Of a DNA stretch of 64,000 nucleotides, positions 13,298 to 64,000 are shown one piece after another (the stretch's first letter is position 1; the number at the start of each line of letters is the position of its first letter). Made by a program: the position numbers and the translations under genes. Origin of the DNA: an uncultured Bacteroidales bacterium (GTDB taxonomy: Bacteria > Bacteroidota > Bacteroidia > Bacteroidales > Bacteroidaceae); NCBI GenBank assembly GCA_902779165.1, contig CACZAN010000016.1:62001-126000 (forward strand), given 5' to 3'. The notes below the pieces were generated by a model. The model was not told the DNA's origin. It worked only from the letters and a program-made list of their open reading frames with translations, and ran no database searches.

Positions 13298-13366
13298 CTT
13301 TTTGAAAGAAAAAGTGATTTGTGGTCTGTTTTTGTCTCCGCTTCGCTCGCAAGAGGCTCAAAACAA

Positions 13367-13402
13367 TGCCGCCAAAGGGTCGTTCAAAACCCTTTGGCGG
13401 CA
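13367..13402 (-). terminator. Perfect 13-bp hairpin, probable terminator of the SusCD/fasciclin operon
   Basis: Arms 13367-13379 (TGCCGCCAAAGGG) and 13390-13402 are perfectly complementary with a 10-nt loop. On the minus strand the stem is followed by ttgtttt, a weak T run. It lies between the stop of the second SusD gene and the promoter of the beta-galactosidase operon, where a terminator is expected. Confidence 0.65.
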
Positions 13403-13417
13403 AAAATGTACACATGA

Positions 13418-13614
13418 ATACGTCTTTGAAAGATTTTCCTGTCGTTGTCGGCAAGATGTCTTGTCGTTGTGGGCAGATCGTCTGTTCGTTATGGGCAAGT
13501 CGTCAGGTCGTCTTCCATCTTATGTATAGACGTAAACGACTTTATGTATATACGTCTTCGTCTTTACGTATATACGTCTTTGCCCCGACGTATATATGTC
13601 TTTTCAACGGTCTA
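13418..13614. repeat. Nine-unit degenerate 22-bp tandem array
   Basis: Units start at 13418, 13440, 13462, 13484, 13506, 13528, 13550, 13572 and 13594 with an exact 22-bp step. Nearly all carry a cgt core at unit positions 4-6 (atacgtcttt, tgtcgttgtc, atacgtcttc). The last units pair to give acgtatatacgt palindromes across their junctions. The array fills the interval between the terminator hairpin and the SusD stop, about 120-350 nt upstream of the beta-galactosidase promoter. The function is unknown. Confidence 0.7.
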
Positions 13615-16005
13615 CTACTTCTGCGGCAACTTGAAGTACCAGTTCTTCTCGTTCTGCAGGAAGGAGCGGAGCGAACCGTCGGTGTTGCCAGTACGGTTGG
13701 CTACACGCTTGGCCAGTTCGTCAGCACTGTTGCAGAAGCGGCTGTAGCAGACGAGGTCGTAGAAGCGGTTGCCCTCGAAAGCCGTCTCCAGTGCCAATTC
13801 ATCCAGGATGAGGTGAGCAATGGCTTTCTGTACCTTCGGGAGGTTGGCCTGGTCGTAAATCTCAGCCTTGGTCATGGTGGCCTCGTTGTCCTGAGTCAGC
13901 ATCTTATTGATCTGGTCGATGTAGTTGAAGGTGGTGTTCTGCTCGTTGAAGTAGATGTGGCCGCAACCACGGGTGTGGATGCCGGCGGTGACGGGTTCGC
14001 CGTTGAAGTTACCGTTGTTGTTGGGGTAAGCCACATAGGAACTCAGCTGGTACTGTGTCTCGCCACCGCGAGCGTAGTAGGTTACATCGCTCGCCTCGCC
14101 ACGCAGGTAGATTGTGGCGAAGTTGAGGTACGGAGCAGCCTTGGCAGCCTTCATCTCCCACTTGGAGATATGGTTGCAGACAACGTTCGTGTTGGATTCG
14201 CTCATCCAGTTTTCCCACTCGATAGCCTTCTGGTAGAGGTTGGCGCTGATGGCCTGGAGGTGAGCAGTGTAAGTCTCGTAGAAAGCATGTTCTGCGGGGT
14301 TAGTGTAGACCTTTTCTCCCTCAACTTCCTCATAATCCAAACCTTTAGCCAGAATCTCTATGAGTTCCTGGGCGTTGGCGGGCGAGAATGCGAAGACAGA
14401 GTCGGCTGCCACGGCGCTCTGATATACGTGGTACATCATAGCCTGGTTTGTGGTATAGAACGTGGTGTCGCCGGCAGCGGTGATTTCGCTCTTATCGTAG
14501 TAGACATACGACTTGGGCTCATACTGCTGCTCGCTGGTGGGCAACCAACTGCTGTTGCCGCAGAGACCGCTCTTCAGGATTGCGAAAGCATAACCCGGGA
14601 AGCCGGCACCATTCAGAGCTTGGGCAAAATGCAGCCACACATTACCCTTACGATAGATGATGGGGTAGGCGGTTGGGAAGGAAACTCCGTGGGTGACATA
14701 GGTTACTCTCCCTGAAGATATGGATGAAGTAGACATACACTGCTTCATCACGAAGTTCACTTCCTCTGTGCCGTCGCCATGAAGGTAATCCTGGAAGTTC
14801 TCTGTGGACATCTTAATACGGGCATCGCCAGCATCTTTGAGAACCATGCAACTGGCTACGCCACCACTGACGAGATAGGTTTCGTAGTCTTGGGCGGCGT
14901 TGAGGTTCTCGTAGGCTTTCGAACGGCTGAGCTGGTGCTCGAAGTTCGTAGAGAGGTTTACGCTGACTACGGTCAGGGTATCCTCAGAGGTGGAGTTTAC
15001 GGAAATCTCAGAATCGAAACCGAAGAGTTCCTGCACGCCACGCTGCACGCTACCCCAGAGTTTGCTCTGAGAACTCGGAATGACAGTGATGACTTCACGG
15101 GTACGGGTAGCTTCAGTGTTCTCTCCGAACATGAATTCCCAAGAGGAAGAGAACAACTGAACTGTCTCATCGCGTTGACTGCGGGAGAGTGTTCCATAAT
15201 AGTCATTTGCCGGCAACACGCCGCCATAAGAGGTGTTGAAGTAGTCGTAGTAGTAGCCTGCTGCCTTGGCATAATCTGCCTGCTGGCCCTGCTTGGCCTT
15301 GAGGAGATAGATATCACCGAGGACCAGGTTCTGCGGGAAGAGGCAGAGGGTGCTGTGGCACATGGATGAATAATTGCCATAGTTCACGCGGTCTACGTTG
15401 CGAACCTCCTCAAGCTGAGTGACTACCTTCGTGTTGGTGAAGTTATCAGCGTTGACGGTGGTAGCCGTGTTCTTCCAGAAGTCTTCCATCTGTGCGGTGG
15501 AGAGCATGGGAGTATCGAAGTAGGGCACTTCGCCGTAGGCCAGGATGAGTTGCATGTAGACCCATGCACGGATGCTGGCTACTTGCGCGTATTCCTTAAT
15601 CATGACGCTCTTGTTGGTGCCGGTCTTCTTCAGTGTGTCGCACTGTTGAATGTAGGCATTACAGGAGTTGATGATCTTGTAGAAGTCGCTGGCTTTCAGA
15701 TAACGGTTGGAACCGTCGGAAGCATCACCCGTGGAGCCGAAGTCAAGGATGGAATGGATAGAGTCACTGATGTACTCCGTGGGCTGAACTAAATCGCCAC
15801 GGCACTCGCCGAGGATGACGTAGCGCTCGGAAATCGCTTGCAGTTCCTTGAGGATGCCCCAGTAGGAATAGAGCGTATCGGAGGCGATGGCATCAACCTC
15901 GTTGTGACGGTCCATGTCCGGGGTGAGCATGTCCTCGCAGGAAGTAAAGCCAAAGCCTGTCGTGAGTGCGAGGAGAAGAATGGAAATGATATTCTTTTTC
16001 ATCAT
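13615..16005 (-). CDS. SusD/RagB-family surface glycan-binding lipoprotein, oversized
   Basis: This 796-residue lipoprotein has lipobox GFTSC followed by acidic residues (EDMLTPD), typical of surface export in Bacteroidetes. SusD partners cap the SusC channel and bind its ligand. SusD-like features include the N-terminal segment around YWGILKELQAISERY, the helical stretch ASIRAWVYMQLILAYGEVPY near 160, and a C-terminal LALETAFEGNRFYDLVCYSRF. The protein is roughly 200-250 residues longer than usual, the extra length lying mostly between residues 250 and 600. The start may be at 16005 or one codon in at 16002. It is the last gene of the eight-gene operon and begins 9 nt after the SusC stop. 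Confidence 0.88.
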   Translation of the reverse strand: MMKKNIISILLLALTTGFGFTSCEDMLTPDMDRHNEVDAIASDTLYSYWGILKELQAISERYVILGECRGDLVQPTEYISDSIHSILDFGSTGDASDGSNRYLKASDFYKIINSCNAYIQQCDTLKKTGTNKSVMIKEYAQVASIRAWVYMQLILAYGEVPYFDTPMLSTAQMEDFWKNTATTVNADNFTNTKVVTQLEEVRNVDRVNYGNYSSMCHSTLCLFPQNLVLGDIYLLKAKQGQQADYAKAAGYYYDYFNTSYGGVLPANDYYGTLSRSQRDETVQLFSSSWEFMFGENTEATRTREVITVIPSSQSKLWGSVQRGVQELFGFDSEISVNSTSEDTLTVVSVNLSTNFEHQLSRSKAYENLNAAQDYETYLVSGGVASCMVLKDAGDARIKMSTENFQDYLHGDGTEEVNFVMKQCMSTSSISSGRVTYVTHGVSFPTAYPIIYRKGNVWLHFAQALNGAGFPGYAFAILKSGLCGNSSWLPTSEQQYEPKSYVYYDKSEITAAGDTTFYTTNQAMMYHVYQSAVAADSVFAFSPANAQELIEILAKGLDYEEVEGEKVYTNPAEHAFYETYTAHLQAISANLYQKAIEWENWMSESNTNVVCNHISKWEMKAAKAAPYLNFATIYLRGEASDVTYYARGGETQYQLSSYVAYPNNNGNFNGEPVTAGIHTRGCGHIYFNEQNTTFNYIDQINKMLTQDNEATMTKAEIYDQANLPKVQKAIAHLILDELALETAFEGNRFYDLVCYSRFCNSADELAKRVANRTGNTDGSLRSFLQNEKNWYFKLPQK

Positions 16006-50113: not shown

Positions 50114-52240
50114 TTATTTATTATGACGGTAGCGCAAAAGATACATCGGGCAACCGTTGGACATCGTCTTCCGAATGCGCAGCGCCTTCGCTTCGCTTGT
50201 CAGCCATCGGCCGAGATAGTTGAAGGATTTGTCGGAATAGAAATAACCCGTATGTTTCCTCACGGCATCTGCGATATCGGAGAGTTTTAACCTCACCGCC
50301 CCTTCTTTTACATCTGTCAAGGGTTCAAAGGTGTCAAGGAATCGCACAACTTCCATGCGGCTCTCGGTGTAACGGGCATTGTAGGCTTCGAGTGCTGCTA
50401 AACGTTCTGGAGTGAAATAGTGGAGACGGCCTGACGACAGCTCGGCCAAGGCTTGGGCGTAGAGCAGCGAGTAGGGCAGGGGGGTGGTTGTGTCGATGGA
50501 GGCGCCGTCGCGTATTTCCGCTATGAGAAAACGTCGCGAGCCGCTGGATCCGGCCAGCGCGTTGGCGTTCTTGGTGGTGGCAATGAATGAGGCAAAACGA
50601 GGCAGTTGTATTGTCTCGTTACTATACGGACGTCGTCCTTTGATGCCTGTTTTCTGAATAAGTTCCTTGAGAAAGTATTGTTGGAATTTTTCATTAAATT
50701 GGCTAAACTCGTTGAAGCTGATGAGTAGTGAGGTTGTCATCATTTGATCTACCTCTGACTTCGAGCGGATGTCCATGAGTTCTTGATATCCCACTTCGCA
50801 TAGTGCTGGTGGAAGTAGCAATTGGCCGAAGGCATCCTTGCCGCAGTCCTGGGTGGCTATCAGCATCGGAACAACAGCGTTGCCGTGCATCGGGTCCCAG
50901 CCTTCCCATTGTGCCACCATTCCCAGAAACCATGTGTGGAAACTCTCGCGCCAAAGAGGAGAGCTGGTGGGCACCCGGTCGGCCAGTGCTCCTATATAGT
51001 CGGTCCTGCCGTCCCACTTCTCATTGATACTGTGAAGGTAAGCCCGGGCGGCATTGTAGCTGCGAACGCGTGTTGAACCTAAATAACGTCGCATATCGCG
51101 GTCGTGGACCTCCAAGCCGAACTCATGAGCTTCCTGGATCATCGTGTTCGTCATGCGGCTGTCCAGCGGCTGGAAGTTTGGGGTGGCAGAATCGTTGCGG
51201 CGCCACTCTACGCCATTCGTCAGCTCGTTGAAACGGAGGTCGTATCGGATGCGAATGAATTCCTGTAAAGAGAAAGCTGCCTCTTGCATCCTATAGCTGC
51301 GATTGCGACCGGCCTTGGATGCGTTTTCGAGGTAGATGCTCTCAATGGTAGTTCGTGCCAGATGTCTGTCAATTTCATAAAATAGAGGATTCCTTATGGC
51401 CTGCCTCACAGCTTCTTCCTGAGGGATGTTCAGCCTTAAGGACTCTATGGCTGTAGCTTCCAGCAAAGGTAGTCCTTCTGCAGTTCCTTCCTCCTTCGCC
51501 TTGCTCACGGCCAACGCGAAGCGACGACGGTAGAGACAGTTCGTCTCTGGAGAGGGCAGGGCTGTGTTTGGTCCATATTCTAAAGTATCGGCACAGCCCT
51601 CGTTGCCAGCTACGCGTAATAGTTCTCGCCGCGGAATACGAATGGGTTGTGCCTGTGGGTTGATGAATGGGGTGGGGTCATAAGTCCAGCGAAACGTGTC
51701 TCGTACATGGGCATTCTTTGGCTTCAACGGGTGCCCGATGAGGCTCGCATAGGCTGCTGCACAGGTCTCATACAAGGCTTGATGGAAATGTTCTGCAACG
51801 TCGTTGGGCAGGGAGCCATCGTCCAATGTTCCACCTACGAGGATCTTTACACTCTGGCCACTGGCTCCCGTGAAGGCGGCCAAGGTCGTTGGCCACCCCG
51901 CCACCCTCATCTTCACACGTTCAATGTCAGCGGACCTTGTGAGGCCGCTGACTTCGAGAAGTACTACGCCGTTGTACGTCGTTTGCAGCTCGCCGTTGCG
52001 ACGAATCTTCTGGAGTAGGCCAGGACAAATCAGCGGCAGTTGGTGGATTCCCCTCCAATGCCAAGACGGCGGAAGCGTGGGCAACTCTGCCCTGAACGCT
52101 TCCACCGTCTTTCTCTTTCTCTCATCTGTCTGGAACAGAGTTGCTAACTCTTCCAGACCCAAAATGCTGGTCTTTTCTTTCTTACTCCTTATCGTCTTAC
52201 TGTATATCGTGCATAGCATATCTGGTATGTTTTGCTCCAA
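50114..52240 (-). CDS. BT4734-N/VapE-like DUF3874-type protein with degenerate Walker A
   Basis: This 708-residue protein fits the Bacteroidetes architecture of a BT4734-like N-terminal domain (about residues 85-220, IRRNGELQTTYNGVVLLEVS and VAGWPTTLAAFTGASGQSVK) followed by a VirE/VapE-like P-loop domain (about 340-600) and a DUF3874-like C-terminus with a winged-helix look (SDIADAVRKHTGYFYSDKSF). The family resembles primase-helicase-associated proteins of phages and islands. The P-loop is damaged: it reads MLIATQDCGKDAFG (residues 459-472), keeping K468 but with Asp in place of the Ser/Thr. Conserved LISFNEFSQF and SFIATTKNANALAGSSGSRR remain. It stands alone between the lpx and cobalamin operons under its own promoter. 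Confidence 0.7.
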   Translation of the reverse strand: MEQNIPDMLCTIYSKTIRSKKEKTSILGLEELATLFQTDERKRKTVEAFRAELPTLPPSWHWRGIHQLPLICPGLLQKIRRNGELQTTYNGVVLLEVSGLTRSADIERVKMRVAGWPTTLAAFTGASGQSVKILVGGTLDDGSLPNDVAEHFHQALYETCAAAYASLIGHPLKPKNAHVRDTFRWTYDPTPFINPQAQPIRIPRRELLRVAGNEGCADTLEYGPNTALPSPETNCLYRRRFALAVSKAKEEGTAEGLPLLEATAIESLRLNIPQEEAVRQAIRNPLFYEIDRHLARTTIESIYLENASKAGRNRSYRMQEAAFSLQEFIRIRYDLRFNELTNGVEWRRNDSATPNFQPLDSRMTNTMIQEAHEFGLEVHDRDMRRYLGSTRVRSYNAARAYLHSINEKWDGRTDYIGALADRVPTSSPLWRESFHTWFLGMVAQWEGWDPMHGNAVVPMLIATQDCGKDAFGQLLLPPALCEVGYQELMDIRSKSEVDQMMTTSLLISFNEFSQFNEKFQQYFLKELIQKTGIKGRRPYSNETIQLPRFASFIATTKNANALAGSSGSRRFLIAEIRDGASIDTTTPLPYSLLYAQALAELSSGRLHYFTPERLAALEAYNARYTESRMEVVRFLDTFEPLTDVKEGAVRLKLSDIADAVRKHTGYFYSDKSFNYLGRWLTSEAKALRIRKTMSNGCPMYLLRYRHNK

Positions 52241-52650: not shown

Positions 52651-52663
52651 CGGCCGAAATAAG

Positions 52664-52860
52664 GAAATCATGCGGTCGAAGTGCCACATGATGTAAGGGA
52701 ATCCGGTGAAAATCCGGGGCTGTACCTGCAGCTGTAATCCCCTTTGTATGTCTGTCCGTATAACGCCACTGACTGGAAGTTGACAAGTTGACGAAGTTAG
52801 CAAGTTGACTGGTTGGGAAGGTAGAACAGACGGGGAAAGCCAGAAGACCTGCCGACATTT
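52664..52860 (+). promoter_or_regulatory. Cobalamin (adenosylcobalamin) riboswitch
   Basis: The conserved core reads aagggaatccggtgaaaatc (from 52695) then cggggctgtacctgcagctg (52716 on), matching the cobalamin element, and the B12 box agccagaagacctgcc is at 52838-52853. The upstream stem pairs tcatg (52668-52672) with catga (52687-52691). Between the core and the B12 box, in the variable peripheral arm, lies an 8-bp tandem repeat (52777-52808). A small stem (gcgtc 52875-52879, gacgc 52888-52892) just before the ATG at 52904 may be the expression platform, so control is probably at translation; no terminator T run is seen. High corrinoid would lower expression of the operon. Confidence 0.92.
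52777..52808 (+). repeat. 8-bp tandem repeats in the riboswitch peripheral arm
   Basis: Four units (aagttgac, aagttgac, gaagttag, caagttga) follow each other without gaps in the variable region of the cobalamin riboswitch. They lie between the conserved core and the B12 box. Confidence 0.75.
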
Positions 52861-52903
52861 CGTCACTTAGCACGGCGTCCAGGATCAGACGCGCGGAACT
52901 TCA

Positions 52904-55096
52904 ATGAAAACAAACCTCTGCGTGGCACAGCGCACGATGGTAGTGTTCTTGGCATGTATGTGCCTCGTTCTTCCATCATCAGCACAAGACACTCTGCAGA
53001 CAAACCGTCTGGAAGAAGTGGTCGTTACCGGTACTGGCACCCAGCACCGACTGAAAGATGTGCCCGTACAGACAGAGGTAATCACGCGTCGCGAGCTGGA
53101 ACAATATGGTGGACGCAGCATTGAGGATATCCTGAGCGGACTGACGGCCAGTTTCGCCTTTAGTGAGGACGATATGGGTAGCCAGATGCAGATGAACGGG
53201 CTGGGGAATTCGTATATTCTGATTTTGATAGATGGCAAGCGCCTTCACGGCGACAACGGAGGACAGAACGACCTCGGACTTATTGACCCTGCCCGCATCG
53301 AACGAATTGAAATCGTGAAAGGTGCTGCTTCTGCGCTCTATGGATCGGATGCCATTGCGGGAGTCATAAATATTATTACGCGCAAGTATGACCGCGATGG
53401 GCTGCTCCTGGAGAATACCACACGTGGCGGCAGTTATGGTGATCTGCGTCAGCACAACAGCGTAGGTTTCGCTATTGGCAAGTTCAGCAGCCTCACCAAC
53501 TTCCAGCTGCAACATAGCAACGGTTGGCAGAATACTACCATCGAGGACCCACATCAGACAGAGTTCCTTATTACAGACTCGCGCAATATGACAGTCAACC
53601 GCTACACCAATTGGCAGGTGGCCGAGCGGCTGACCTACACGCCCGCTTCCAATTGGGAACTGTATGCTGAAGGCAGTATCTACCGCAAACGTATCTACCG
53701 TCCATCTGGAAAATATGCCGCTGTGGACGTGAAGACCTATGACTTGCAGTATCGCAATGCTTCTGTTTCAGCGGGTGCTAAGTGGCAGGCTTCGGACAAA
53801 GCCGTCGTGACCCTGGATATCGACTGGAACCGTCATGCCTACTATTATGTATTTACCGACACTACGCTTGTGGATGGCTATGATCCCTACGGCAACTTCA
53901 CTCATTACTTCCCTTATTTCCCAGGTCAATCGAACCTGCAGAGCGATCAACGCCGCACGATGGGTCACCTAAAAGGTATCTTCGACTTGCCTGCTAAAAA
54001 CCGTCTCAGTGCAGGACTGGAAGTGCGTCACGACTGGCTGAAAGCCCCCATGAGAGTGGATAACGGGGGGACGGTTACAGATGACACTGAGGCCTTGTAT
54101 GTGCAGGATGAGTGGATGCCGAATTGGACGAATTCACGAGCCCATGATAAGAATATTTTACAATTGACGGGTGGACTGCGACTGGACCGAAACCGGCAGT
54201 TTGGTCTTCACCTGACGCCCAAGCTCTCGGCTATGGTGAAACCCACGAGCTGGCTGAATCTGCGTGCTGCCTGGTCACAGGGTTTCAAGACTCCCACGCC
54301 CAAAGAGCAACACTACCGTTATGTCCGCGAAATGAGCGGCACATACCTCTACCTTGGTAATACAGATTTGCGTCCGCAGACCAGCAACTATGGTTCCGTA
54401 AGTGCGGAGGTGAACATTGGCGGTTTCTCGCTTTCCGTCACGGGATATATTAATAAGGTGAAAGACATGATTGCCCTCAACACCATTCCCAACTATCGTG
54501 CACCCGAAGAATACCAAACTCAGTATGAGCTGCATAAGACGCGGCAGTACCAGAACCTCGAGGATGCCCGCACCATCGGCGTTGACGTGAATGTGCGCTA
54601 TACTGTGAAGGATTTTGCCTTTGGTGGTAGCTACACTTATCTCGATACCGAAGCCCACCAGTATGATAGCGACCACGAGCGGATGACAGAGGTCGTTATC
54701 GACGGTATGGCGCATCATAAAGCTAACTGGTTTGCCACTTGGAATCACCGCTTCCGCTGTCCCTATCGCCTGGGCCTGGGCCTGTATGGTCGTGCCTCGT
54801 CGGAGAGATACTACCAAATCAACGGCAATGGCAAACCTTACCACCTTTGGCGCCTCTCCAGCACTCATGACATTTTGTGCCGTGCAATTCAATCGCACGG
54901 ACTGACACTCCGCGTTGAAGCTGGCGTGGATAATATTTTCAACTACGTAGACCGCACACCTCATGGGCTACACCTCGGCACCACATCGCCAGGCACCACC
55001 GTCTACGCCTCTCTCACTATCCGATTCAATCAAGGCAAAGCCCAATTTAAATCATTCAAAACCAATTCTAAAATTAACAGCAATGAAGAAGATTAA
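52904..55096 (+). CDS. btuB: TonB-dependent outer-membrane receptor, BtuB-like (first)
   Basis: This 730-residue protein has a signal peptide (MKTNLCVAQRTMVVFLACMC, cut near SSAQ). The plug (about 35-150) reads LEEVVVTGTGTQHRLKDVPV, then YILILIDGKRLHGDNGG and IEIVKGAASALYGSDAIAGV. The beta-barrel follows, ending TSPGTTVYASLTIRF with a short Lys/Asn-rich tail. No carboxypeptidase-like N-terminal domain is present, unlike SusC. It is placed directly under a cobalamin riboswitch, so corrinoid import is the best guess, although cobalt- or tetrapyrrole-carrying ligands are possible. Its 3' end overlaps the next gene by 14 nt. Confidence 0.9.
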   Translation: MKTNLCVAQRTMVVFLACMCLVLPSSAQDTLQTNRLEEVVVTGTGTQHRLKDVPVQTEVITRRELEQYGGRSIEDILSGLTASFAFSEDDMGSQMQMNGLGNSYILILIDGKRLHGDNGGQNDLGLIDPARIERIEIVKGAASALYGSDAIAGVINIITRKYDRDGLLLENTTRGGSYGDLRQHNSVGFAIGKFSSLTNFQLQHSNGWQNTTIEDPHQTEFLITDSRNMTVNRYTNWQVAERLTYTPASNWELYAEGSIYRKRIYRPSGKYAAVDVKTYDLQYRNASVSAGAKWQASDKAVVTLDIDWNRHAYYYVFTDTTLVDGYDPYGNFTHYFPYFPGQSNLQSDQRRTMGHLKGIFDLPAKNRLSAGLEVRHDWLKAPMRVDNGGTVTDDTEALYVQDEWMPNWTNSRAHDKNILQLTGGLRLDRNRQFGLHLTPKLSAMVKPTSWLNLRAAWSQGFKTPTPKEQHYRYVREMSGTYLYLGNTDLRPQTSNYGSVSAEVNIGGFSLSVTGYINKVKDMIALNTIPNYRAPEEYQTQYELHKTRQYQNLEDARTIGVDVNVRYTVKDFAFGGSYTYLDTEAHQYDSDHERMTEVVIDGMAHHKANWFATWNHRFRCPYRLGLGLYGRASSERYYQINGNGKPYHLWRLSSTHDILCRAIQSHGLTLRVEAGVDNIFNYVDRTPHGLHLGTTSPGTTVYASLTIRFNQGKAQFKSFKTNSKINSNEED

Positions 55097-56171
55097 ATTC
55101 TTTCTGATGGCTCTCGCAGCCATTTCGCTCTCAGCAGGCTTCATGGCCTGCTCAAATGATGACGATGTCAGCAACTGGCAGAAGTATCAAGATGCAGTGA
55201 CCCAGAACGTAAAGTCCAACAAGAAGCAGAACAAAGCAATCCTGCTTGTTGCTTTCGGAAGCACATGGCAGCAGGCTTACGATGCCTTCGACGGCACAGT
55301 CAGTGCCTACAAGCAGCAGTTCCCCGCCTATGATGTATTCCTCTCCTTCTCCTCTGCTATCTGCATCAACCGTGCTGCCGCTGGTGAGAACGTGGATCCT
55401 CGCAATTTCTATGCTCCCAACTTCTGGCTTAACGCTTTCGCTCAGGAAGGCGTGCGCTATGATGAGATTGTTGTGCAGTCTCTGCAGGTCATCCCTGGCG
55501 AAGAGTACACACGCGTCATCAACTACATCAAGGACTTCGCCAACAACAGCAATGGCGATCTTGATGACGAATATCTCTCCAAGGTGGTGCTGAAACTGGG
55601 TGTACCCCTCCTTCAGGATGCTGACAAGGATGTCCCCGAAGTTGCCAAGCAGCTCAACGCCCTCTACAAGACACAGGCTGCCGAAGGTGCAGTCGCCTTC
55701 ATGGGGCATGGCAACCCCGACAGCTACGACACCTACAAGGCTAACGTCCGCTACACCCAGCTTGAAGAGGCGCTGCAAACCTATAGCAAGAACTACTTTG
55801 TCGGTACCGTAGATATGATGGGCAACTTCAAGACCAACGTGCTCCAGCGTATGCAGGATGCCGGCGTCACCAGCGGCAAGGTCTACTGCCATCCGCTGAT
55901 GTCTATCGACGGTGACCACGGTCATAACGATATGGCTGGCGATGACGATGCTTGGGACAATGGTTATGAGCCCAACGAAGAAGGCGAAGTCGAGGAAACA
56001 AGTTGGAAGAAGTACTTCAGCCGCATGGGATATGTCTGTAACAATGAAACCATGATCGAGAAGGGCCTGCTGGAACTCCCCACTGTGCGCAACGTATGGA
56101 TGCAGCATACGAAGGACGCCATAGCTGGCGAAGCACTCGATTATTATCACTCCAAGAATCCTGAAGAATAA
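55083..56171 (+). CDS. cbiK: CbiK-type sirohydrochlorin cobaltochelatase as a lipoprotein
   Basis: This is a 362-residue protein. I chose the start at 55083 because it opens a lipoprotein signal (MKKIKFFLMALAAISLSAGF, then MAC with C23); the frame upstream belongs to the receptor gene. The family inserts Co2+ into sirohydrochlorin early in anaerobic B12 synthesis. Motifs seen are ILLVAFGSTWQQAYDAFDG, SLQVIPGEEYTRV, FMGHGNPDSY (H209) and SIDGDHGHNDMAGDDDAW (H279), so both catalytic histidines appear kept. The Cys is followed by SNDDD, matching the acidic surface-export signal of Bacteroidetes, so it may sit outside the cell. An acidic insert (YEPNEEGEVEETS) follows H279. It lies between two TonB receptors, which suggests a role in metal or tetrapyrrole handling at the envelope. 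Confidence 0.88.
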   Translation: MKKIKFFLMALAAISLSAGFMACSNDDDVSNWQKYQDAVTQNVKSNKKQNKAILLVAFGSTWQQAYDAFDGTVSAYKQQFPAYDVFLSFSSAICINRAAAGENVDPRNFYAPNFWLNAFAQEGVRYDEIVVQSLQVIPGEEYTRVINYIKDFANNSNGDLDDEYLSKVVLKLGVPLLQDADKDVPEVAKQLNALYKTQAAEGAVAFMGHGNPDSYDTYKANVRYTQLEEALQTYSKNYFVGTVDMMGNFKTNVLQRMQDAGVTSGKVYCHPLMSIDGDHGHNDMAGDDDAWDNGYEPNEEGEVEETSWKKYFSRMGYVCNNETMIEKGLLELPTVRNVWMQHTKDAIAGEALDYYHSKNPEE

Positions 56172-56180
56172 ATAGGATCC

Positions 56181-58283
56181 ATGAAACACTCCATAAATAC
56201 TATCTGCTTCACGGCGGTGCTCCTGCATTTGGGCGGGGGCACCGCTTTTGCTCAATCTGCCCACTCGACTACAGATCTTAACCCAGTGGTTGTCACAGGC
56301 ACAGGTACATATCACCGCTCTGATAATTCTCCTGTTGCCGTGAAGGTTATTACAGCCAAAGAGCTGAAAGACGCTCATGTGTTGACCTTGCAGGAAGCCC
56401 TAACACGGTTGACCACCCATATCACTACGCACACCAGTGGAATGGGAACCTTTGTGAACTTCAACGGCATTAGCGATGACTATATCGTTATTCTTGAGAA
56501 CGGAAAACGCGTCAGTGGTGATGACCGCTGGAGCCGTATCTCGCTGGCTAATGTACGCCGTATTGAAATCTTTAGCGGGGCGGCATCTGCACTCTACGGC
56601 AGCGATGCTATCGCGGGTGTCATCAACATCATTACAGACGACAGCAAGGAACCCGTTTCTGCATCGTCCACCACCAAGGTGATGAATCACGGCCGTCTGG
56701 ACGAAGATATCGCCGTGGACTTCACCGCCGGCAAATTTTCTTCCCACACCTCCTATACCTACCATCAGGCAGATAACTGGCAAGTGAACCGCTATCAGGC
56801 TTTCGATGAGGACGGCACTGAGGTGCTGAGGCTCACAGGGCGTCCGATGTCTACGGGTTTCCATAGCCACAATATCAGCGAGAAGTTGGATTTCCAACTC
56901 AATAATCAGTGGTCCTTCTACATTCGTGGCTCCTACTACGACAACCTCACCACTCGTCCCCAATCCGCGACCTACTTCACCCAGAAGAAAAATACGGCCC
57001 CTGCTGGAGATGCGGATGGTGGGACATCCGTTGCTACCTATTCCTACAATGCTAAGCAGGCCTATACCTACGACCTTCATCATAATTCTTACCTCTACGG
57101 CGGCGGTGCCCGCTGGACTCCCAACCCTCATATCCACCTCTACCTGGATGTTTATAGCGATAATTTCTCATCGATGTATGATTACTGGCAGACTGCCGAG
57201 AAAGAACCCTACGACGAGACACGCAAACGCACCCATTATGTCAATGAAACCTTACGTGGTATCTTCCGTTTGGCAGACTGGAACAAACTCTCGGCTGGTG
57301 CTGAGTTCGTGCAGGAGAGCCTAACGAGCCAAAGCGACAATATTGATTTTGAGAAAACCAATTCCTACAACCTCTTTGTACAGGATGAGTTGCGCATCGC
57401 CCGTTCGCTTGACGCTGTCGTCGGACTTCGTTACACCCAGAATGATCATTTCGGAGCTGCCCTGACCCCCAATGCAGGTCTTTTCTTCCATACGGGGGGC
57501 TTCCGCCTGCGTGCCAGCTATGCCGGAGGCTATCGCACCCCAACCCTATCGCAGCTCTATGCCACCGACCAAGCCAAGACAGCTGCTCGCTATACTCTCT
57601 ACAATAAGGACTTAAAACCTGAAAAAAACCATTTTGTCAACGTCAATGCCGAGTACAGCAATACTTGGATGAGTGTGAGTGTCAGTGCCTTTCTTAATAA
57701 AATTCGTGACATGATAAACTATCGCACCATGACCCAAGCCGAGATAGTCGCTGATGCTGATCTCACCGCCTTGCAGAATGAGGGGTGGGAGACCATTCGC
57801 CAGCGTGACAATATAGACCGTGCGACTCTTCGAGGAATCAGCACTTCGCTGAAGTTCCTCTTGCCTTATGGTTTCATCATAGGTGGCGGTTATAGCTTCA
57901 CGGATTCTGAGGCTGAGACTCAGAGTTTGGACAAGAAGACACAACAATACATCACCACCACATCACCCGTGGATAAAAGTGTGAAACACGTCGGTTGCGT
58001 GCTTGCTTCGTGGGACCATACATGGGGAGACTATCATCTGAATGTCAGCCTCAATGGCCACATTCAGGGACAACGTTACAGCAGTACCTATGGTTATGCA
58101 GAAGGATTCAGCCAATGGGACTTGACGACACGTCACACCATCGTACTCCGTAACTTTACTCTTGAACCGGGTTTAGGTATTGAAAACCTATTCAATCAGC
58201 GCGATACGTCCCCTTGGAACTCCAATTTTTCCACGATTAATCCAGGTCGTTCCTATATTTTCAGCCTGAGAATGAAATATTAG
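56181..58283 (+). CDS. TonB-dependent outer-membrane receptor, BtuB-like (second)
   Basis: This 700-residue protein has a signal peptide (MKHSINTICFTAVLLHLGGG, cut near AFAQ). The plug contains LNPVVVTGTGTYHRSDNSPV, then YIVILENGKRVSGDD and IEIFSGAASALYGSDAIAGV. The barrel ends GRSYIFSLRMKY, with the typical C-terminal aromatic residue. It resembles the first receptor in the plug but differs strongly in the barrel, suggesting a different ligand. It starts 9 nt after the CbiK stop, so the three genes form a receptor-chelatase-receptor unit. Confidence 0.9.
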   Translation: MKHSINTICFTAVLLHLGGGTAFAQSAHSTTDLNPVVVTGTGTYHRSDNSPVAVKVITAKELKDAHVLTLQEALTRLTTHITTHTSGMGTFVNFNGISDDYIVILENGKRVSGDDRWSRISLANVRRIEIFSGAASALYGSDAIAGVINIITDDSKEPVSASSTTKVMNHGRLDEDIAVDFTAGKFSSHTSYTYHQADNWQVNRYQAFDEDGTEVLRLTGRPMSTGFHSHNISEKLDFQLNNQWSFYIRGSYYDNLTTRPQSATYFTQKKNTAPAGDADGGTSVATYSYNAKQAYTYDLHHNSYLYGGGARWTPNPHIHLYLDVYSDNFSSMYDYWQTAEKEPYDETRKRTHYVNETLRGIFRLADWNKLSAGAEFVQESLTSQSDNIDFEKTNSYNLFVQDELRIARSLDAVVGLRYTQNDHFGAALTPNAGLFFHTGGFRLRASYAGGYRTPTLSQLYATDQAKTAARYTLYNKDLKPEKNHFVNVNAEYSNTWMSVSVSAFLNKIRDMINYRTMTQAEIVADADLTALQNEGWETIRQRDNIDRATLRGISTSLKFLLPYGFIIGGGYSFTDSEAETQSLDKKTQQYITTTSPVDKSVKHVGCVLASWDHTWGDYHLNVSLNGHIQGQRYSSTYGYAEGFSQWDLTTRHTIVLRNFTLEPGLGIENLFNQRDTSPWNSNFSTINPGRSYIFSLRMKY

Positions 58284-58328: not shown

Positions 58329-59729
58329 ATGGGAAAAATTATTGTTGTGGGCTTAGGCCCAGGACGTCCAGAAAATATCACTCCTGCAGTTCAGACCGCA
58401 CTGAAGCAAGCTGATGTGGTTGTTGGCTATAGATACTATTTTCAGTTTGTGGAGTCTCTTCTCCGCGAAGGTTGCGAGTGTATTGATACAGGAATGAAAC
58501 ACGAACGCGAGCGGGCAGAGCAAGCTTTCGTGCAGGCCGAACAGGGAAAGATGGTTGTTGTCATCTCGTCTGGTGATGCCGGCATCTATGGGATGACTCC
58601 GCTCATTTATGAGATGGCCCGCGAACGATCCGCTGATATTGAGATCATATCCCTTCCGGGTATCAGTGCTTTCCAAGAGGCTGCAGCCTTGCTGGGGGCC
58701 CCTATAGGACATGATTTCTGTGTGATTTCGCTCTCAGACCTGATGACCCCATGGACGGTTATTGAGAAACGTATCAGGGCTGCTGTCGTCGGAGATTTTG
58801 TCACTGCCGTATATAACCCCAAGTCCCACGGTCGATACTGGCAACTCCATCGCCTTGTGGAACTCTTTCTACAAGGTCGATCCGCTGTAACTCCAATAGG
58901 CTATGTGCGTCAGGCCGGGCGCGAAGATGAGGAGGTGAAGATCACTACTCTGGGTGCTTTTAACCCCGAAGATGTAGATATGTTCACCGTCATCTTAATA
59001 GGTAATTCGCAGTCATACATTGCCGACAATAAGATGATTACTCCACGAGGATACTTTCACGAGGAACAGGTGGAGGGAACTAAAGTTGGTCAACAAATAA
59101 TGAATGCGTCTTTCCGTACCATCCTCTCTGAAATGAAGCATCCCGATGTGCCGCGCTGGCGTCTTTGGCCCTTGTTACATGCCATACATACTACGGTAGA
59201 TTTCGGTATGGAAGAATGCCTTTGGATGGACGAACGTGCTACAGAAATCCTATATAGCAAAGTATCAGAAGGCCATCTGCAACATATCGTAACAGATGTG
59301 ACAATGACAGCCAGTGGAATACGCAAGGGGGCTTTGGACAGACTGGGTATAGAAGTACACTGCTATATAAATGACCCGCGATCCCAACGAATGGCAGAGG
59401 AAAAAGGTGTCACGCGCAGTCAGGCGGCTATGCGACTGGCTGCCGAGGAATATCCTGAGGCGCTCTATGTGGTAGGTAATGCACCCACAGCCCTTTTTGA
59501 GATTTGTGATTTGGTGCACAAAGGAAAGCTATATCCTGTCGGAATCATTGCAGCACCCGTGGGCTTCGTTCATGTGTGCGAGAGCAAGCATGCAGTCAAG
59601 ACACTGACAGATATTCCCAAGATCATTGTTGAGGGACGCAAGGGTGGCAGTAATCTTGCAGCCACGCTTGTCAACGCCATCCTCACCTACGACGATGCAG
59701 CACAGCTCAAGCCTGGCCGCGATCTTTGA
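58329..59729 (+). CDS. cbiHC: Fused precorrin-3B C17-methyltransferase / precorrin-8 methylmutase
   Basis: This 466-residue bifunctional protein has CbiH/CobJ at about 1-245 (IIVVGLGPGRPENITPA, VISSGDAGIYGM, SLPGISAFQEAAALLGAPIG, a SAM-dependent ring-contraction methyltransferase). CbiC/CobH occupies about 260-466 (ASFRTILSEMKHPDVP, then LLHAIHTTVDFGMEE with the catalytic histidine, VGNAPTALFEI and GFVHVCESKH). CbiC moves the methyl from C-11 to C-12. The two steps are not consecutive, so the fusion is organisational. It starts 45 nt after the second receptor. Confidence 0.93.
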   Translation: MGKIIVVGLGPGRPENITPAVQTALKQADVVVGYRYYFQFVESLLREGCECIDTGMKHERERAEQAFVQAEQGKMVVVISSGDAGIYGMTPLIYEMARERSADIEIISLPGISAFQEAAALLGAPIGHDFCVISLSDLMTPWTVIEKRIRAAVVGDFVTAVYNPKSHGRYWQLHRLVELFLQGRSAVTPIGYVRQAGREDEEVKITTLGAFNPEDVDMFTVILIGNSQSYIADNKMITPRGYFHEEQVEGTKVGQQIMNASFRTILSEMKHPDVPRWRLWPLLHAIHTTVDFGMEECLWMDERATEILYSKVSEGHLQHIVTDVTMTASGIRKGALDRLGIEVHCYINDPRSQRMAEEKGVTRSQAAMRLAAEEYPEALYVVGNAPTALFEICDLVHKGKLYPVGIIAAPVGFVHVCESKHAVKTLTDIPKIIVEGRKGGSNLAATLVNAILTYDDAAQLKPGRDL

Positions 59730-59762: not shown

Positions 59763-60986
59763 ATGATACAATTCATTGTTATCGGCATTACAGACAATCC
59801 GAACCCTTGGTTTCCACAAGATGTGCTGGAGATAATCCGGCAGGGCAGGGTGTTCTCGGGAGGCAAGCGCCATCATGAGATCGTGGCTCCATTGTTGCCT
59901 GAATGTGCCGAATGGATAGACATTACAGTACCTCTTGAAGCCGTCTTTGAGAAGTATGAAAGTGTGAATTGCAAATCGTCTAATTGTAAATCAATAGTGG
60001 TCTTCGCTTCGGGCGACCCACTTTTCTTCGGCTTCGCAAATACCATTAAGCGTATGATGCCAAATGCGGAACTCCAACTGTACCCTACGTTCAATTCCCT
60101 TCAACAGTTGGCTCACCGCCTGTTGCTGCCTTACCAAGACATGAAGATCGTCTCGCTGACGGGACGTCCCTGGCAGGAATTTGACCGCGCTCTTATCGAA
60201 CGGACGGGGATGATAGGTGTACTCACAGATAAGGAACATAATCCAGCATCTATTGCGCGAAGAATGCTGGAGTACGGCTATACTTATTATATAATGTACG
60301 TGGGTGAGCATTTGGGGAATCCTGAAAACGAAAAGATATCAACACTCACCCTCGAAGAGGCCAGCCAATGCGACTTCGGTCATCCCAACTGTTTGATTAT
60401 TCAGAAGCAGATGACAGAAGATAGGAAGCCTTATGGCCTACCTGATTCAGAATTTGTATTGCTTGACGGCCGCGAGAAGATGATTACAAAGATGCCAATC
60501 AGGTTGTTGACATTGCAGGCTTTGAACCTGACACATCGACGTGTGTTCTGGGATATCGGAGCTTGCACGGGTAGTATCTCCATTGAAGCAAGGCTACTGT
60601 TCCCGCATCTGCATGTAGATGCCTTCGAGATACGGCCAACGTGCGAGGCGATAATTCACAAGAATGCTCGTAAGTTTAGGACTCCTGGAATCAATGTCCA
60701 TATGGGAGACTTCTTGGAAACAGACATCACAGTCTTGCCACACCCAGAAGCAGTCTTCATCGGTGGACACGGCGGACGACTAAAGGAGATCATGGCGAAG
60801 GTGTTGACGGTGCTGACAGATGACGGTATCATTGTGATGAACAGCGTCAAGGCGCCTAAGGTAGCAACTGACAGCCACCAGCTTTGGGACGAGGCCAGTC
60901 AAGAACTCGGCCTAAAGCAAGAACCACCAATGAGAATAATAATCGATGAACATCACCCCATAGAGATCTTAAAAGCTCACAAATGA
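59763..60986 (+). CDS. cbiET: Fused precorrin-6Y C5,15-methyltransferase and C12-decarboxylase
   Basis: This 407-residue CobL-type protein has CbiE at about 1-205 (VFSGGKRHHEIVAPLLPE, VVFASGDPLFFGFAN, LTDKEHNPASIARRML) and CbiT at about 215-407 (YGLPDSEFVLLDGREKMITK, then FWDIGACTGSISIEARLL, the SAM site). It methylates C-5 and C-15 and decarboxylates the C-12 acetate. A short duplicated stretch NCKSSNCKS (residues 69-77) interrupts CbiE just before the conserved FASGDP, encoded by an 11-bp near-direct repeat at 59967-59992. It overlaps the next gene by 4 bp (ATGA). Confidence 0.93.
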   Translation: MIQFIVIGITDNPNPWFPQDVLEIIRQGRVFSGGKRHHEIVAPLLPECAEWIDITVPLEAVFEKYESVNCKSSNCKSIVVFASGDPLFFGFANTIKRMMPNAELQLYPTFNSLQQLAHRLLLPYQDMKIVSLTGRPWQEFDRALIERTGMIGVLTDKEHNPASIARRMLEYGYTYYIMYVGEHLGNPENEKISTLTLEEASQCDFGHPNCLIIQKQMTEDRKPYGLPDSEFVLLDGREKMITKMPIRLLTLQALNLTHRRVFWDIGACTGSISIEARLLFPHLHVDAFEIRPTCEAIIHKNARKFRTPGINVHMGDFLETDITVLPHPEAVFIGGHGGRLKEIMAKVLTVLTDDGIIVMNSVKAPKVATDSHQLWDEASQELGLKQEPPMRIIIDEHHPIEILKAHK

Positions 60987-62752
60987 AGATCGCAATTGTA
61001 ATAATCAACGAGACGGGCAAGGATATCGCTCTTTCGCTCCAGCATGAACTTGACGCAACAATCATATCTCACAAGTTTGTGGGTGAACGATGGGATAAGT
61101 TCGATGCCTTCATTTTTATCGGAGCAATGGGCATCTGTGTACGCATCATTGCACCTTATATCAAAGATAAGCGCGAAGACCCTGCCGTGGTATGCGTGGA
61201 TAGTTTAGGATTGAATGCTATCGCCGTTCTTTCAGGACATATAGGAGGTGCCAACCGTCTGACACAGAATATTGCAACAATCTTGGGAGCTCGTGAGGTC
61301 ATCACCACCCAAAGCGACCTTTTAGGACTATGGGCACTTGATACTTTCAACCAGATTTACGGATGGGATGTAGAACTATGTGAAGGGCATGGTACGATGA
61401 ACGATGTGATAGCCACATTCGTACATAAGGAGCCGACCGCTTTGTTATTAGATATTCGCGATGAGGGTACGGACTACTTAGAAACACACCTGCCAAGTCA
61501 TGTTACCCTTGTCAGCGACATCAGCGATGTGAATCCCGAGCGTTTCCGTCTTCTGATAGTTGTCTCTCCCTTTTATCATTCTGTTCCTAAATGTATGCAG
61601 TTCGTTCAATATATTCCGCGTGTACTGGAATTTGGTATAGGACTTGCTCATCAGGCACCGTTACAGGAAGTGTTGAATGGATTGGATGCGCTTTACCATG
61701 AGCATGGTATTTACAGGGAGGCAGGTAATATTTGTACCATCGACATTAAGGCCGAAGAGCCCGTCATCCAACACCTGAAGTCCGAAGGCTATCCCGTCCG
61801 TTTCTTTACTGCCGACGAACTGGCCAAGGTAGATGTCCCCACACCCAGCGAGACAGTAGAAAAGCATGTTGGCACCCCGAGTGTCTGCGAGGCTGCAGCC
61901 TTGTTGGCTTCCAAACATGGAAAACTGCTATTTCCGAAAGTTAAGGGAAAGAATTTCACACTTGCTGTTGCCATCGATAAAAAGTTTTCGCGCGAAGGCC
62001 ATATCGAGATTGTTGGTGCAGGTCCTGGTGACCCAGACTTGGTCAGTGTTCGTGGTCGTAAGATGCTGGAGCGGGCTGACTTGATTCTCTATGCAGGTTC
62101 TTTAGTGCCTAAGGCCTTGACGGAATGCCATAAGCCTGGTGCGGTAGTGCGCTCTTCTGCAGACATGAATCTTGAAGAGCAATGTGCACTGATGAAGGAG
62201 CACTATGACAAAGGACATTTTATCGTGCGGTTGCACACCGGCGACCCCTGCATCTTTGGCGCCATTCAGGAGCAGATGGCATACTTCGATCAGAACCATA
62301 TGGACTATCACATCACGCCAGGTATCTCATCGTTCCTTGCCGCGGCAGCCGAGCTGCAGAGTCAGTTTACCATACCTGAGCGTTGCCAAAGCATTATCCT
62401 TACGCGTGGCGAAGGGCGTACCCCTATGCCCGAAAAAGAACAACTGCATCTGCTGGCAAAGAGCCAAAGCACGATGTGTATTTTCCTCTCGGCTTCGATC
62501 GTAGATGATGTACAAAAGGAACTTTTGATGGAATATCCAGAGAATACCCCTGTTGCTGCCTGTTATCATCTCACGTGGCCCGACCAGAAAATCTATCGCG
62601 GCCAACTCAAGGACCTTGCCAAGATAGTCCACGACAACCATCTTACCCTGACAACGATGCTCGTAGTCGGCGAAGCCATTGGCAACCGCGCCGGTCTTTC
62701 AGAGCTTTACAGCAAGAACTTTACCCACCTATTTAGAAAAGGCAAAGAATGA
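60983..62752 (+). CDS. cbiGF: Fused cobalt-precorrin 5A hydrolase / precorrin-4 C11-methyltransferase
   Basis: This 589-residue protein has CbiG at about 1-330: FIFIGAMGICVRIIAPYI, SLGLNAIAVLSGHIGGANRL, and the C-terminal GIGLAHQAPLQEVLNGLDAL and PSVCEAAALLAS. CbiG opens the lactone of cobalt-precorrin-5A. CbiF/CobM occupies about 335-589: EIVGAGPGDPDLVSVRGRKM, ILYAGSLVP, IVRLHTGDPCIFGAIQEQ, TPGISSFLAAAAELQSQFTI and ILTRGEGRTPMPE, adding methyl at C-11. CbiF makes the substrate of CbiG, so here the fused enzymes are consecutive. It overlaps both neighbours by 4 bp. Confidence 0.93.
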   Translation: MKIAIVIINETGKDIALSLQHELDATIISHKFVGERWDKFDAFIFIGAMGICVRIIAPYIKDKREDPAVVCVDSLGLNAIAVLSGHIGGANRLTQNIATILGAREVITTQSDLLGLWALDTFNQIYGWDVELCEGHGTMNDVIATFVHKEPTALLLDIRDEGTDYLETHLPSHVTLVSDISDVNPERFRLLIVVSPFYHSVPKCMQFVQYIPRVLEFGIGLAHQAPLQEVLNGLDALYHEHGIYREAGNICTIDIKAEEPVIQHLKSEGYPVRFFTADELAKVDVPTPSETVEKHVGTPSVCEAAALLASKHGKLLFPKVKGKNFTLAVAIDKKFSREGHIEIVGAGPGDPDLVSVRGRKMLERADLILYAGSLVPKALTECHKPGAVVRSSADMNLEEQCALMKEHYDKGHFIVRLHTGDPCIFGAIQEQMAYFDQNHMDYHITPGISSFLAAAAELQSQFTIPERCQSIILTRGEGRTPMPEKEQLHLLAKSQSTMCIFLSASIVDDVQKELLMEYPENTPVAACYHLTWPDQKIYRGQLKDLAKIVHDNHLTLTTMLVVGEAIGNRAGLSELYSKNFTHLFRKGKE

Positions 62753-63783
62753 AACATTCAGCATCTTTCATCCTGCTGACGCTGTTGATTGTCGTACTCT
62801 TCGTGCTTAACCTCCTTCTTGGCACGGTGAGCATTCCTGTGCGCGATGTGCTCTGCATCCTTTTCTCTCCCTCCGCCCTTAACCTTGATACCTCTACTCA
62901 GGCTGTTTGGTCCAATATTATCTGGAGCTCACGCGTTCCTCAAGCTCTGACCGCTCTAATGGCTGGTGCCGGTTTAGCGGTCAGTGGCCTGCAGATGCAG
63001 ACCGTTTTCCGCAATCCTTTGGCAGGTCCCTCGGTGCTCGGAATTTCCAATGGCGCATCTCTCGGTGTGGCTTTGGTGGTACTCATGAGTGGCTCTTTGG
63101 GAGGCATGGCCTTGAGTCGCTTGGGTTATCTCGGCGATGTGGCTATGAGTGTGGCCGCTATTGTTGGAGCTTTGGCGGTCATGGGACTTATTGTTTGGGT
63201 CGCCCAACGTGTACAAGGCAATGTGACTCTGCTCATCATCGGCGTACTCATCGGTTATATGGCCAATGCTATCATCGGTGTGTTGAAATTCTTCTCCAAC
63301 GAAGAAGATATCAAAGCTTATGTTGTCTGGGGGCTCGGTTCCTTTGCACGCGTATCTGGTGACCAGATGGTACTCTTCGTGGTGCTGATGGCTATCCTTC
63401 TACCACTGAGTATGCTGCTTGTCAAGACCATGAATCTGTTGCTCTTGGGTGATGCCTATGCCCAGAATCTCGGATTGAACCTCCAGCGCGCCCGCACTCT
63501 TGTCATCCTCTCTTCAGGAGTTCTTGTCGCCATTGTCACGGCCTACTGCGGCCCGATCATGTTCATAGGACTTGCTGTACCCCACCTGGCTCGCGCCATG
63601 TTCCGCACCAGCGACCATCGTATTCTGATGCCTGCCACTTTGCTTGCTGGTGGTGTTTTGGCCCTTCTCTGTAACCTCATCGCCCGTATGCCCGGCTTCG
63701 AAGGTGCCTTGCCTGTCAACTCCGTCACCGCCCTCGTCGGCGCTCCTGTCATTGCGACAGTGCTGTTCAAAAGAAAAGACTAA
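62749..63783 (+). CDS. btuC: FecCD-family ABC transporter permease, BtuC-like
   Basis: This 344-residue inner-membrane permease is of the FecCD/BtuC family for corrinoid, siderophore or heme uptake. Typical motifs are WSSRVPQALTALMAGAGLAV, SGLQMQTVFRNPLAGPSVLG, ISNGASLGVAL and YCGPIMFIGLAVPHLARAMF, with about nine to ten transmembrane helices. Its place after the cobalamin genes under the riboswitch points to corrinoid import from the periplasm. The start codon overlaps the cbiGF stop by 4 bp (ATGA). Confidence 0.92.
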   Translation: MKHSASFILLTLLIVVLFVLNLLLGTVSIPVRDVLCILFSPSALNLDTSTQAVWSNIIWSSRVPQALTALMAGAGLAVSGLQMQTVFRNPLAGPSVLGISNGASLGVALVVLMSGSLGGMALSRLGYLGDVAMSVAAIVGALAVMGLIVWVAQRVQGNVTLLIIGVLIGYMANAIIGVLKFFSNEEDIKAYVVWGLGSFARVSGDQMVLFVVLMAILLPLSMLLVKTMNLLLLGDAYAQNLGLNLQRARTLVILSSGVLVAIVTAYCGPIMFIGLAVPHLARAMFRTSDHRILMPATLLAGGVLALLCNLIARMPGFEGALPVNSVTALVGAPVIATVLFKRKD

Positions 63784-63817: not shown

Positions 63818-64000
63818 ATGAAACACATCCACTTTATCATTTGTATTCTTTCTTGTGTTACTCTCATCGCTTGTAGCCCTCGTAGCTCCAAGACCTCAAG
63901 TTCCGCTTCTTCCACATTGGAGAGTAGGGAAGAGCCGATGTCCTATGCCAAAGGATTCTCTGTCAGCACGTTAAAGAATGGTATAAGGTTGGTGGATGTG
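63818..64000 (+). CDS. BtuF-like corrinoid-binding lipoprotein, N-terminal part only
   Basis: The 61 codons visible run to the window end. They read MKHIHFIICILSCVTLIAC followed by SPRSSKTSSSASST and FSVSTLKNGIRLVDV. This gives a lipoprotein signal with lipobox LIAC, a Ser-rich linker and the start of what should be a periplasmic binding domain. The absence of acidic residues after the cysteine suggests the periplasmic face. Position directly after a BtuC-type permease makes a BtuF-like substrate-binding partner likely; the rest lies beyond the window. Confidence 0.7.
   Translation, partial: MKHIHFIICILSCVTLIACSPRSSKTSSSASSTLESREEPMSYAKGFSVSTLKNGIRLVDV

Follow-up and report, generated by a model that had tools for sequence, protein, structure and literature searches.

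A CbiK-type chelatase with lipoprotein export signals between two TonB-dependent receptors in a Bacteroidales corrin operon: a candidate for cobalt insertion outside the cytoplasm

Background

Why would a chelatase of the CbiK type, encoded within a corrin biosynthesis operon, carry the signals of a surface-exposed lipoprotein and be flanked by two TonB-dependent receptors? The question is raised by a stretch of 64,000 nucleotides from an uncultured rumen bacterium of the Bacteroidaceae (Bacteroidales; assembly GCA_902779165.1, contig CACZAN010000016.1, positions 62,001 to 126,000; hereafter the window), for which an initial inspection of the sequence (the original prediction) had proposed a receptor-chelatase-receptor unit that loads or strips metal from tetrapyrroles outside the cell, or captures cobalt or corrinoid. 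What the sequences show is the set of genes and their arrangement, a riboswitch, an export signal, kept catalytic residues and, across the genus, a near-total lack of matches to CobA, HemB and CbiL. Our preferred reading, to which we give about an even chance, is a lipid-anchored enzyme that would add cobalt outside the cytoplasm to scavenged rings, for later use by the corrin pathway. The proposal is thereby narrowed, as the gene company favours cobalt loading for corrin synthesis among the options of loading, stripping and capture.

The chelatase and its operon

The following features were assigned (positions are those of the window):

52656..52871, plus strand: cobalamin riboswitch at the operon head (Rfam RF00174, 70.1 bits)
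52904..55096, plus strand: TonB-dependent receptor R1, 730 residues (Pfam plug and barrel)
55083..56171, plus strand: CbiK-type chelatase lipoprotein, 362 residues (ATG at 55083 to stop at 56171; Pfam CbiK)
55083..55148, plus strand: chelatase signal peptide, residues 1-22 (translation; aligned in 28 relatives)
55149..55166, plus strand: lipobox Cys23 and SNDDD, resembling a lipoprotein export signal (LES) (translation, genus proteins, published consensus)
55503..55505, plus strand: codon of E141, equivalent to Salmonella CbiK E89 (alignment; invariant in 74/74)
55707..55709, plus strand: codon of H209, equivalent to Salmonella CbiK H145 (alignment; invariant in 74/74)
55917..55919, plus strand: codon of H279, equivalent to Salmonella CbiK H207 (alignment; invariant in 74/74)
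56181..58283, plus strand: TonB-dependent receptor R2, 700 residues (Pfam plug and barrel)
58329..59729, plus strand: CbiH-CbiC fusion (TIGR01466, 319.9 bits; Pfam CbiC)
59763..60986, plus strand: CbiE-CbiT fusion (TIGR02467 and TIGR02469, both above cut-off)
60983..62752, plus strand: CbiG-CbiF fusion (Pfam CbiG domains; TIGR01465, 339.3 bits)
62749..63783, plus strand: BtuC/FecCD-type permease (Pfam FecCD, 3e-72)
63818..64000, plus strand: BtuF-like lipoprotein, cut by the window end (the name is our reading and that of the original prediction; no NCBIfam match)

The reading frame, its Pfam match and the plug and barrel domains of its neighbours bear out the predicted position of a CbiK-type chelatase between two TonB-dependent receptors, and the RF00174 match before R1 places the unit under a B12 riboswitch, as had been proposed. 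The ATG of the chelatase overlaps the last 14 bases of R1. A longer chelatase frame starting at 54963 was rejected, because it reads through the end of R1 and because the ATG at 55083 and the signal peptide are kept in 41 relatives. Beyond the 3' end of the window, up to the end of the contig, the series continues with CbiJ-CbiD, CobU and CobT. In sequence, R1 and R2 alike gave matches to Cir, BtuB and heme receptors, which points to no one substrate.

The chelatase clearly belongs to the CbiK family (Pfam PF06180; 2.2e-42, 145.6 bits against a cut-off of 26.2). Against the NCBIfam equivalog model NF047852 (sirohydrochlorin cobaltochelatase CbiK) it scores 99.8 bits, below the cut-off of 400, and judged by that score it is a relative rather than a member of the CbiK equivalog. 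Talin matches in the profile search (E 0.026 and worse) were regarded as chance. An AlphaFold model of the protein (mean predicted local distance difference test score 87.4, falling below 50 in residues 1-27 and 355-362; predicted template modelling score 0.85) has the bilobal chelatase fold, with template modelling scores (TM-scores) of 0.89-0.90, normalized by target, to the solved structures 9b86, 2xvx and 1qgo. The closest of these is FetB of Porphyromonas gingivalis (9b86; 30% identity, TM-score 0.89 by target), which we take to be the same protein as IhtB of that species. The precedent named in the original prediction, a periplasmic CbiK in Desulfovibrio, holds for D. vulgaris, but it is not the nearest one, IhtB/FetB being closer.

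By pairwise position count, E141, H209 and H279 align with E89, H145 and H207 of Salmonella CbiK, and this triad is invariant in all 74 aligned CbiK proteins, in agreement with the earlier impression that the two catalytic histidines are kept. We take Salmonella E89 to be the third active-site residue. The two histidines, H145 and H207, form the pair identified in the active site of that enzyme (PMC7689651). The ratio of non-synonymous to synonymous substitution rates was 0.05-0.07 in comparisons of the chelatase with four relatives (several neighbouring genes gave no value, owing to synonymous saturation); in view of this ratio and of the kept triads, a decaying chelatase gene was rejected.

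Two other regions of the window, both on the minus strand, were noted in passing. Just upstream of the operon (50114-52240) lies a gene for a protein with BT4734-like and VapE-like domains, and the region 13615-38721, with SusC-sized TonB plug proteins, a weak match to SusD and proteins of glycosidase type (GH43/GH32-like, glycosyl hydrolase core), probably represents polysaccharide-use loci.

Export signal

In the translation C23 is followed by S24-N25-D26-D27-D28, as predicted. In an LES, polar and then acidic residues follow the +1 cysteine, a pattern which C-SNDDD shows. The consensus described for surface lipoproteins of Bacteroides fragilis is SDDDD, and an acidic stretch behind the cysteine is described as directing Bacteroidota lipoproteins outward (PMC5080379). 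The signal was compared in 41 distinct chelatases of the genus, the window protein included; these derive from the fetched loci, out of 65 genus genomes with CbiK matches, and 28 of them were used in the alignment and 18 in the tree. A lipobox cysteine is present in 41/41, as picked by a script that required two acidic residues at +2 to +7 and that no protein failed. At least two Asp or Glu residues occur at +2 to +6 in 38 of the 41, with Ser the commonest residue at +2 (27/41) and Asp at +4 (35/41).

The BtuF-like lipoprotein encoded from 63818 has C-SPRSS and no acidic stretch, and here too the initial observation was correct. Among lipoproteins of the same genus loci the acidic signal was found in 1 of 15 BtuF-like proteins and in 10 of 19 other lipobox proteins; it would thus be a common lipoprotein export mark, with nothing special to the chelatase. 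From these signals we infer a surface location. For Tannerella forsythia, a CbiK appears in a table of outer-membrane vesicle proteins, a hint that is made weak by the 'C' in a column that we take to give the predicted location (PMC4604654).

Conservation and gene company within the genus

The gene-order survey suggested at the outset gave a uniform picture. The cobalamin riboswitch stands at the operon head, and R1 directly upstream of the chelatase, in each of 37 genus loci (40 riboswitch matches in total); these loci are the chelatase-holding ones among 40 fetched 20-kb stretches, the other three (L050-L052) having been fetched for CbiL. The R1 and chelatase genes overlap in 34 of the 37, and R2 comes after the chelatase in 29 loci and before R1 in seven, and was not seen in one short contig. 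A wider scan of contigs confirmed at least 549 of 595 candidate stretches; the titles of the 80 loci that were listed all denote metagenome-assembled genomes (MAGs) or uncultured Bacteroidales-type bacteria, with no cultured relative among them.

Presence of the chelatase closely follows that of the corrin genes. Among 139 genomes of the genus, 61 have both CbiK and CbiG-F, four CbiK only, five CbiG-F only and 69 neither (Fisher test 5e-28, not corrected for ancestry). In these counts the 65 CbiK genomes include G100, which is under the cut-off, and truncated genes such as that of G070, while CbiG-F presence stands for 66 sub-threshold matches to the CobA model, read as the CbiF half because 61 of them lie in frames of 569-743 residues.

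Two loci deserve mention. In G030 (L073:3335-8162) there are two divergent cobalamin riboswitches, one before R1-CbiK-R2 and the other heading a TonB receptor, an acidic-signal lipoprotein and a CbiL gene, an arrangement that would again tie CbiL to import. In G094 (L051:7638-8177) R1 is reduced to a start of 179 residues and no CbiK was found in the genome, with the CbiL gene and later corrin genes present.

The missing front of the pathway

The steps that lead to the ring substrate are nearly absent from the genus. CobA/SUMT was found above cut-off in none of the 139 genomes, and HemB in one, with an internal stop. CbiL-like genes were found in three genomes (G030, G094 and G097; 152-155 bits, none above the cut-off of 163), only two of which carry CbiK. 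CobN was found in five of the 139 genomes and in none of the 18 best. The window genome has a single CbiK; CobN was not found in it, nor was CbiX, which was sought in this genome only and not genus-wide. Two candidates for hidden functions in the window genome were rejected: a lone NAD_binding_7 match, considered as another chelatase, proved to be glutamate dehydrogenase, and the four TP_methylase proteins, among which CbiL or CobA might have been hidden, are CbiF, CbiH, CbiE and a 16S rRNA methyltransferase. The genus-wide absences are stronger than those in the window genome.

This gene complement can be compared with that of the tetrapyrrole precursor salvagers as defined by Shelton et al. 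(PMC6461909). CobA and HemB are missing and most later genes are present, as far as CobT, after which the contig ends; CbiL is missing too. P. gingivalis is described in that source as lacking the steps to precorrin-2, and such precursor salvagers as having received little further study. In a survey of ruminants, Prevotella is the genus to which most stomach B12 genes were assigned, and more than 90% of its genomes are reported as short of cysG and cbiL (PMC9306216), absences which agree with our genus searches. The same survey also lists cbiE, cbiT and cbiJ as missing in Prevotella (PMC9306216). CbiE-T (window 59763-60986) and CbiJ-D (L031:3100-4851) are fusions, and this may explain why these three genes were missed.

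Exported and cytosolic CbiK proteins elsewhere in Bacteroidales

Of 393 genomes sampled evenly across the order, 25 had CbiK above cut-off, and 23 of these were examined; the window genome and G270 (a match of 124 residues) were left out. Frames shorter than 220 residues were dropped, among them a piece of 103 residues in G419 and frames of 124 residues in G220, G324 and G413, which may be small cytosolic CbiX-type chelatases. The 23 genomes, all outside the genus, hold 32 CbiK genes of at least 220 residues, of which 29 are classed as exported and three as cytosolic by a hydropathy and lipobox rule rather than a trained predictor. The exported proteins comprise 12 lipoproteins with an acidic signal, two lipoproteins without, 14 with a plain signal peptide and one that the script left unclassified, the second CbiK of G415, which was counted as exported on account of its signal-peptide-like N-terminus. 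For 27 of the 29 exported CbiKs, but for none of the three cytosolic ones, a same-strand TonB receptor gene lies within 1.5 kb. A riboswitch search that covered 14 of the 31 non-genus stretches found a cobalamin riboswitch in 11.

Acidic-signal lipoproteins do not form a single clade. At least four changes are required on the CbiK tree, which leaves out the CbiKs of G324 and G419, and the export form has thus switched more than once. Of particular interest is G225, whose CbiK has no signal and is nested, with support of 100/99, within a lipoprotein clade of 26 rows (24 with the acidic signal, one without, and G225 itself). Its gene lies in a cluster (L210:8136-15834) with CbiMN, a CbiQ-ATPase fusion ending in NAD_binding_7, HemA, HemC and CobA-HemD; no cobalamin riboswitch was found in this stretch. 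If the NAD_binding_7 domain is read as precorrin-2 dehydrogenase, L210 would be a compact cluster for de novo sirohydrochlorin synthesis and cobalt supply in a Bacteroidales genome. The lipoprotein lineage thus has a member in the position expected of a sirohydrochlorin cobaltochelatase, within a genome able to make the ring and to import cobalt. That this lineage is cytosolic in a genome equipped for ring synthesis is a point that we count in favour of cobalt insertion outside the cytoplasm in the genomes that are not. Of the other two cytosolic CbiKs, that of G281 opens a cbiK-cbiL-cbiHC-ET-GF-JD run with no receptor, and that of G376 lies apart from corrin genes.

A second type of exported CbiK, with a plain signal peptide, likewise occurs beside TonB receptors. 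It was seen at the following loci:

L072:6335-10658
L206:16636-19588 with L207:1-2848
L209:4430-9011
L213:5126-9881
L215:9169-15452
L216:12944-17778
L229:4075-14691

Several of these loci add an unnamed lipoprotein of about 430 residues and PepSY_TM proteins, and one such lipoprotein matches XusB weakly (E 7.5e-4). Cobalamin riboswitches are also present in L207, L213, L215 and L216. The loci can be read as combining a Xus-like module for capture with CbiK and corrin genes. In L072 of G007 (9837-14458) the gene after the signal-peptide CbiK encodes a CobN/HmuS-like protein whose N-terminus holds a membrane segment, giving two unrelated chelatase types in one operon. A further variant, L217:9237-11068, has two CbiK lipoprotein genes in tandem downstream of a single TonB receptor; only one of the two products carries the acidic signal.

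Proposed function

We propose that the window gene encodes a class II cobaltochelatase of the CbiK type, anchored by lipid, most likely exposed on the outer face of the outer membrane, and partnered with R1. At low B12 the riboswitch would permit expression of the operon. Neighbouring organisms would release a metal-free isobacteriochlorin, either sirohydrochlorin or a more methylated compound such as factor III, to which the chelatase would add cobalt. The cobalt-loaded ring would be imported by R1 and/or R2 and moved inward by the BtuFC-type transporter, after which CbiH, F, G, D, J, E, T and C would complete the corrin ring. The ring would already have to bear the C20 methyl group (factor III type), or another enzyme would add it. 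Put most simply, the enzyme would work outside in organisms that have to obtain the ring from outside. Catalysis, the direction of loading rather than stripping, the substrate and the receptor that carries the product are parts of this scheme that we infer.

Several points weigh against the scheme. The main difficulty is CbiL, which was not found in 63 of the 65 CbiK-bearing genus genomes: cobalt-sirohydrochlorin would lead nowhere unless the C20 methyl were already on the scavenged ring or were added by an enzyme of another kind. The scheme also presumes that sirohydrochlorin or factor III is freely available in the rumen. CbiM was found in just one of the 139 genus genomes, as expected if cobalt arrives inside the ring, but it is only one class of cobalt importer. 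Most of the genomes are incomplete MAGs, the window genome being 86% complete, and single absences in it are therefore weak. The missing-front argument is less clean for Porphyromonas, since 13 of 17 species are reported to hold all genes from uroporphyrinogen III onward (PMC4700951). As plain signal peptides occur in about half (14 of 29) of the exported CbiKs outside the genus, surface display is not essential to the theme, and two of the 13 scanned non-genus stretches with an exported CbiK (L206 and L208) had no cobalamin riboswitch. Finally, descriptions of the nearest characterised relative present it as a protein of heme or iron.

Alternative explanations

Instead of an enzyme, the protein could be a non-catalytic surface binder, its chelatase fold serving as a lid on R1, as XusB does on XusA and BtuG on BtuB, for the capture of cobalamin, cobinamide or another cobalt complex. 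Such lipoprotein lids on TonB receptors have been described for XusAB and BtuBG (PMC13142918), the frequent overlap of the R1 and chelatase genes is what a tight receptor-lipoprotein pair would show, and the B12 riboswitch in all 37 genus loci fits as well, with the missing front of the pathway no longer of consequence. However, the catalytic triad does not vary among the 74 aligned CbiKs, the gene goes together with corrin-ring genes that capture of cobalamin or cobinamide would not need, and a de novo cluster holds the cytosolic member of the clade. We therefore consider a pure binder unlikely, though it deserves to be kept in mind.

Alternatively, the protein might be a de-chelatase that strips iron from heme or siroheme outside the cell, the iron entering through R1. 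This has been proposed for IhtB, a lipoprotein homologous to CbiK that is described alongside IhtA and IhtC-E and credited with the removal of iron from heme (PMC10913741), and elsewhere labelled a putative ferrochelatase/reverse ferrochelatase (PMC13227078); moreover, with HemB missing in 138 of the 139 genus genomes, heme would come from outside. Against it stand the B12 riboswitch that heads all 37 genus operons, the association of the gene with CbiG-F, and an operon of corrin genes with no known iron-uptake gene beyond the receptors and the BtuFC-type parts, which are ambiguous, and stripping seems to us decidedly improbable. Little probability also attaches to a lipidated but periplasm-facing enzyme that acts once the metal-free ring has been imported: a periplasmic CbiK is known from D. 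vulgaris and 14 of the 32 non-genus CbiKs have a plain signal peptide, 12 of these beside TonB receptors, but the acidic stretch in 38 of 41 genus proteins is, as described for Bacteroidota, an outward signal.

Implications

If cobalt is indeed inserted outside the cytoplasm, part of B12 synthesis would take place there, and the annotation of a cbiK gene would be no proof of cobalt insertion inside the cell. Isobacteriochlorins would then be traded between microbes in gut and rumen, and an exported cobaltochelatase tied to TonB receptors would offer a concrete entry point for foreign rings. More generally, many Bacteroidales without precorrin-2 synthesis might begin corrin synthesis in this way, by means of an exported CbiK and a TonB receptor, with a committed step of B12 synthesis performed at the cell surface on the rings of neighbours; IhtB/FetB would then count as a B12 protein, in addition to or in place of its role as a heme protein. 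This extension is tentative, and we judge it somewhat more apt to fail than to hold, but there is a real chance that it would change the role assigned to IhtB/FetB-type proteins.

Comparison with known systems

In the open-access literature, among the matches listed, no title connects corrin synthesis in Bacteroidota with an exported CbiK. The cytosolic CbiK of Salmonella (1qgo), which serves a de novo pathway, shares with the window protein the fold (25% identity, TM-score 0.90 by target) and the aligned triad, whereas the window protein carries export signals. The CbiK of D. vulgaris (2xvx, 2xvz; 26% identity, TM-score 0.89 by target) is likewise an exported class II chelatase of the same fold, but it is periplasmic, unlike the surface-type lipoprotein of the window, and we know of no TonB receptor partner for it. 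With XusAB and BtuBG of Bacteroides the locus has in common an LES lipoprotein beside a TonB receptor and a presumed role in the capture of a scarce nutrient (PMC13142918, PMC6143338); XusB is described as a beta-propeller binder (PMC13142918), in contrast to the chelatase fold and kept catalytic residues found here. The greatest likeness is to IhtB/FetB, which is also a CbiK-related lipoprotein next to a TonB receptor and is described with ABC-transporter parts. Unlike that system, which by its descriptions handles heme or iron, the window gene lies in a corrin operon with a B12 riboswitch and a second receptor. An exported CbiK-type lipoprotein is therefore a known kind of protein, and what is new is its corrin-gene company.

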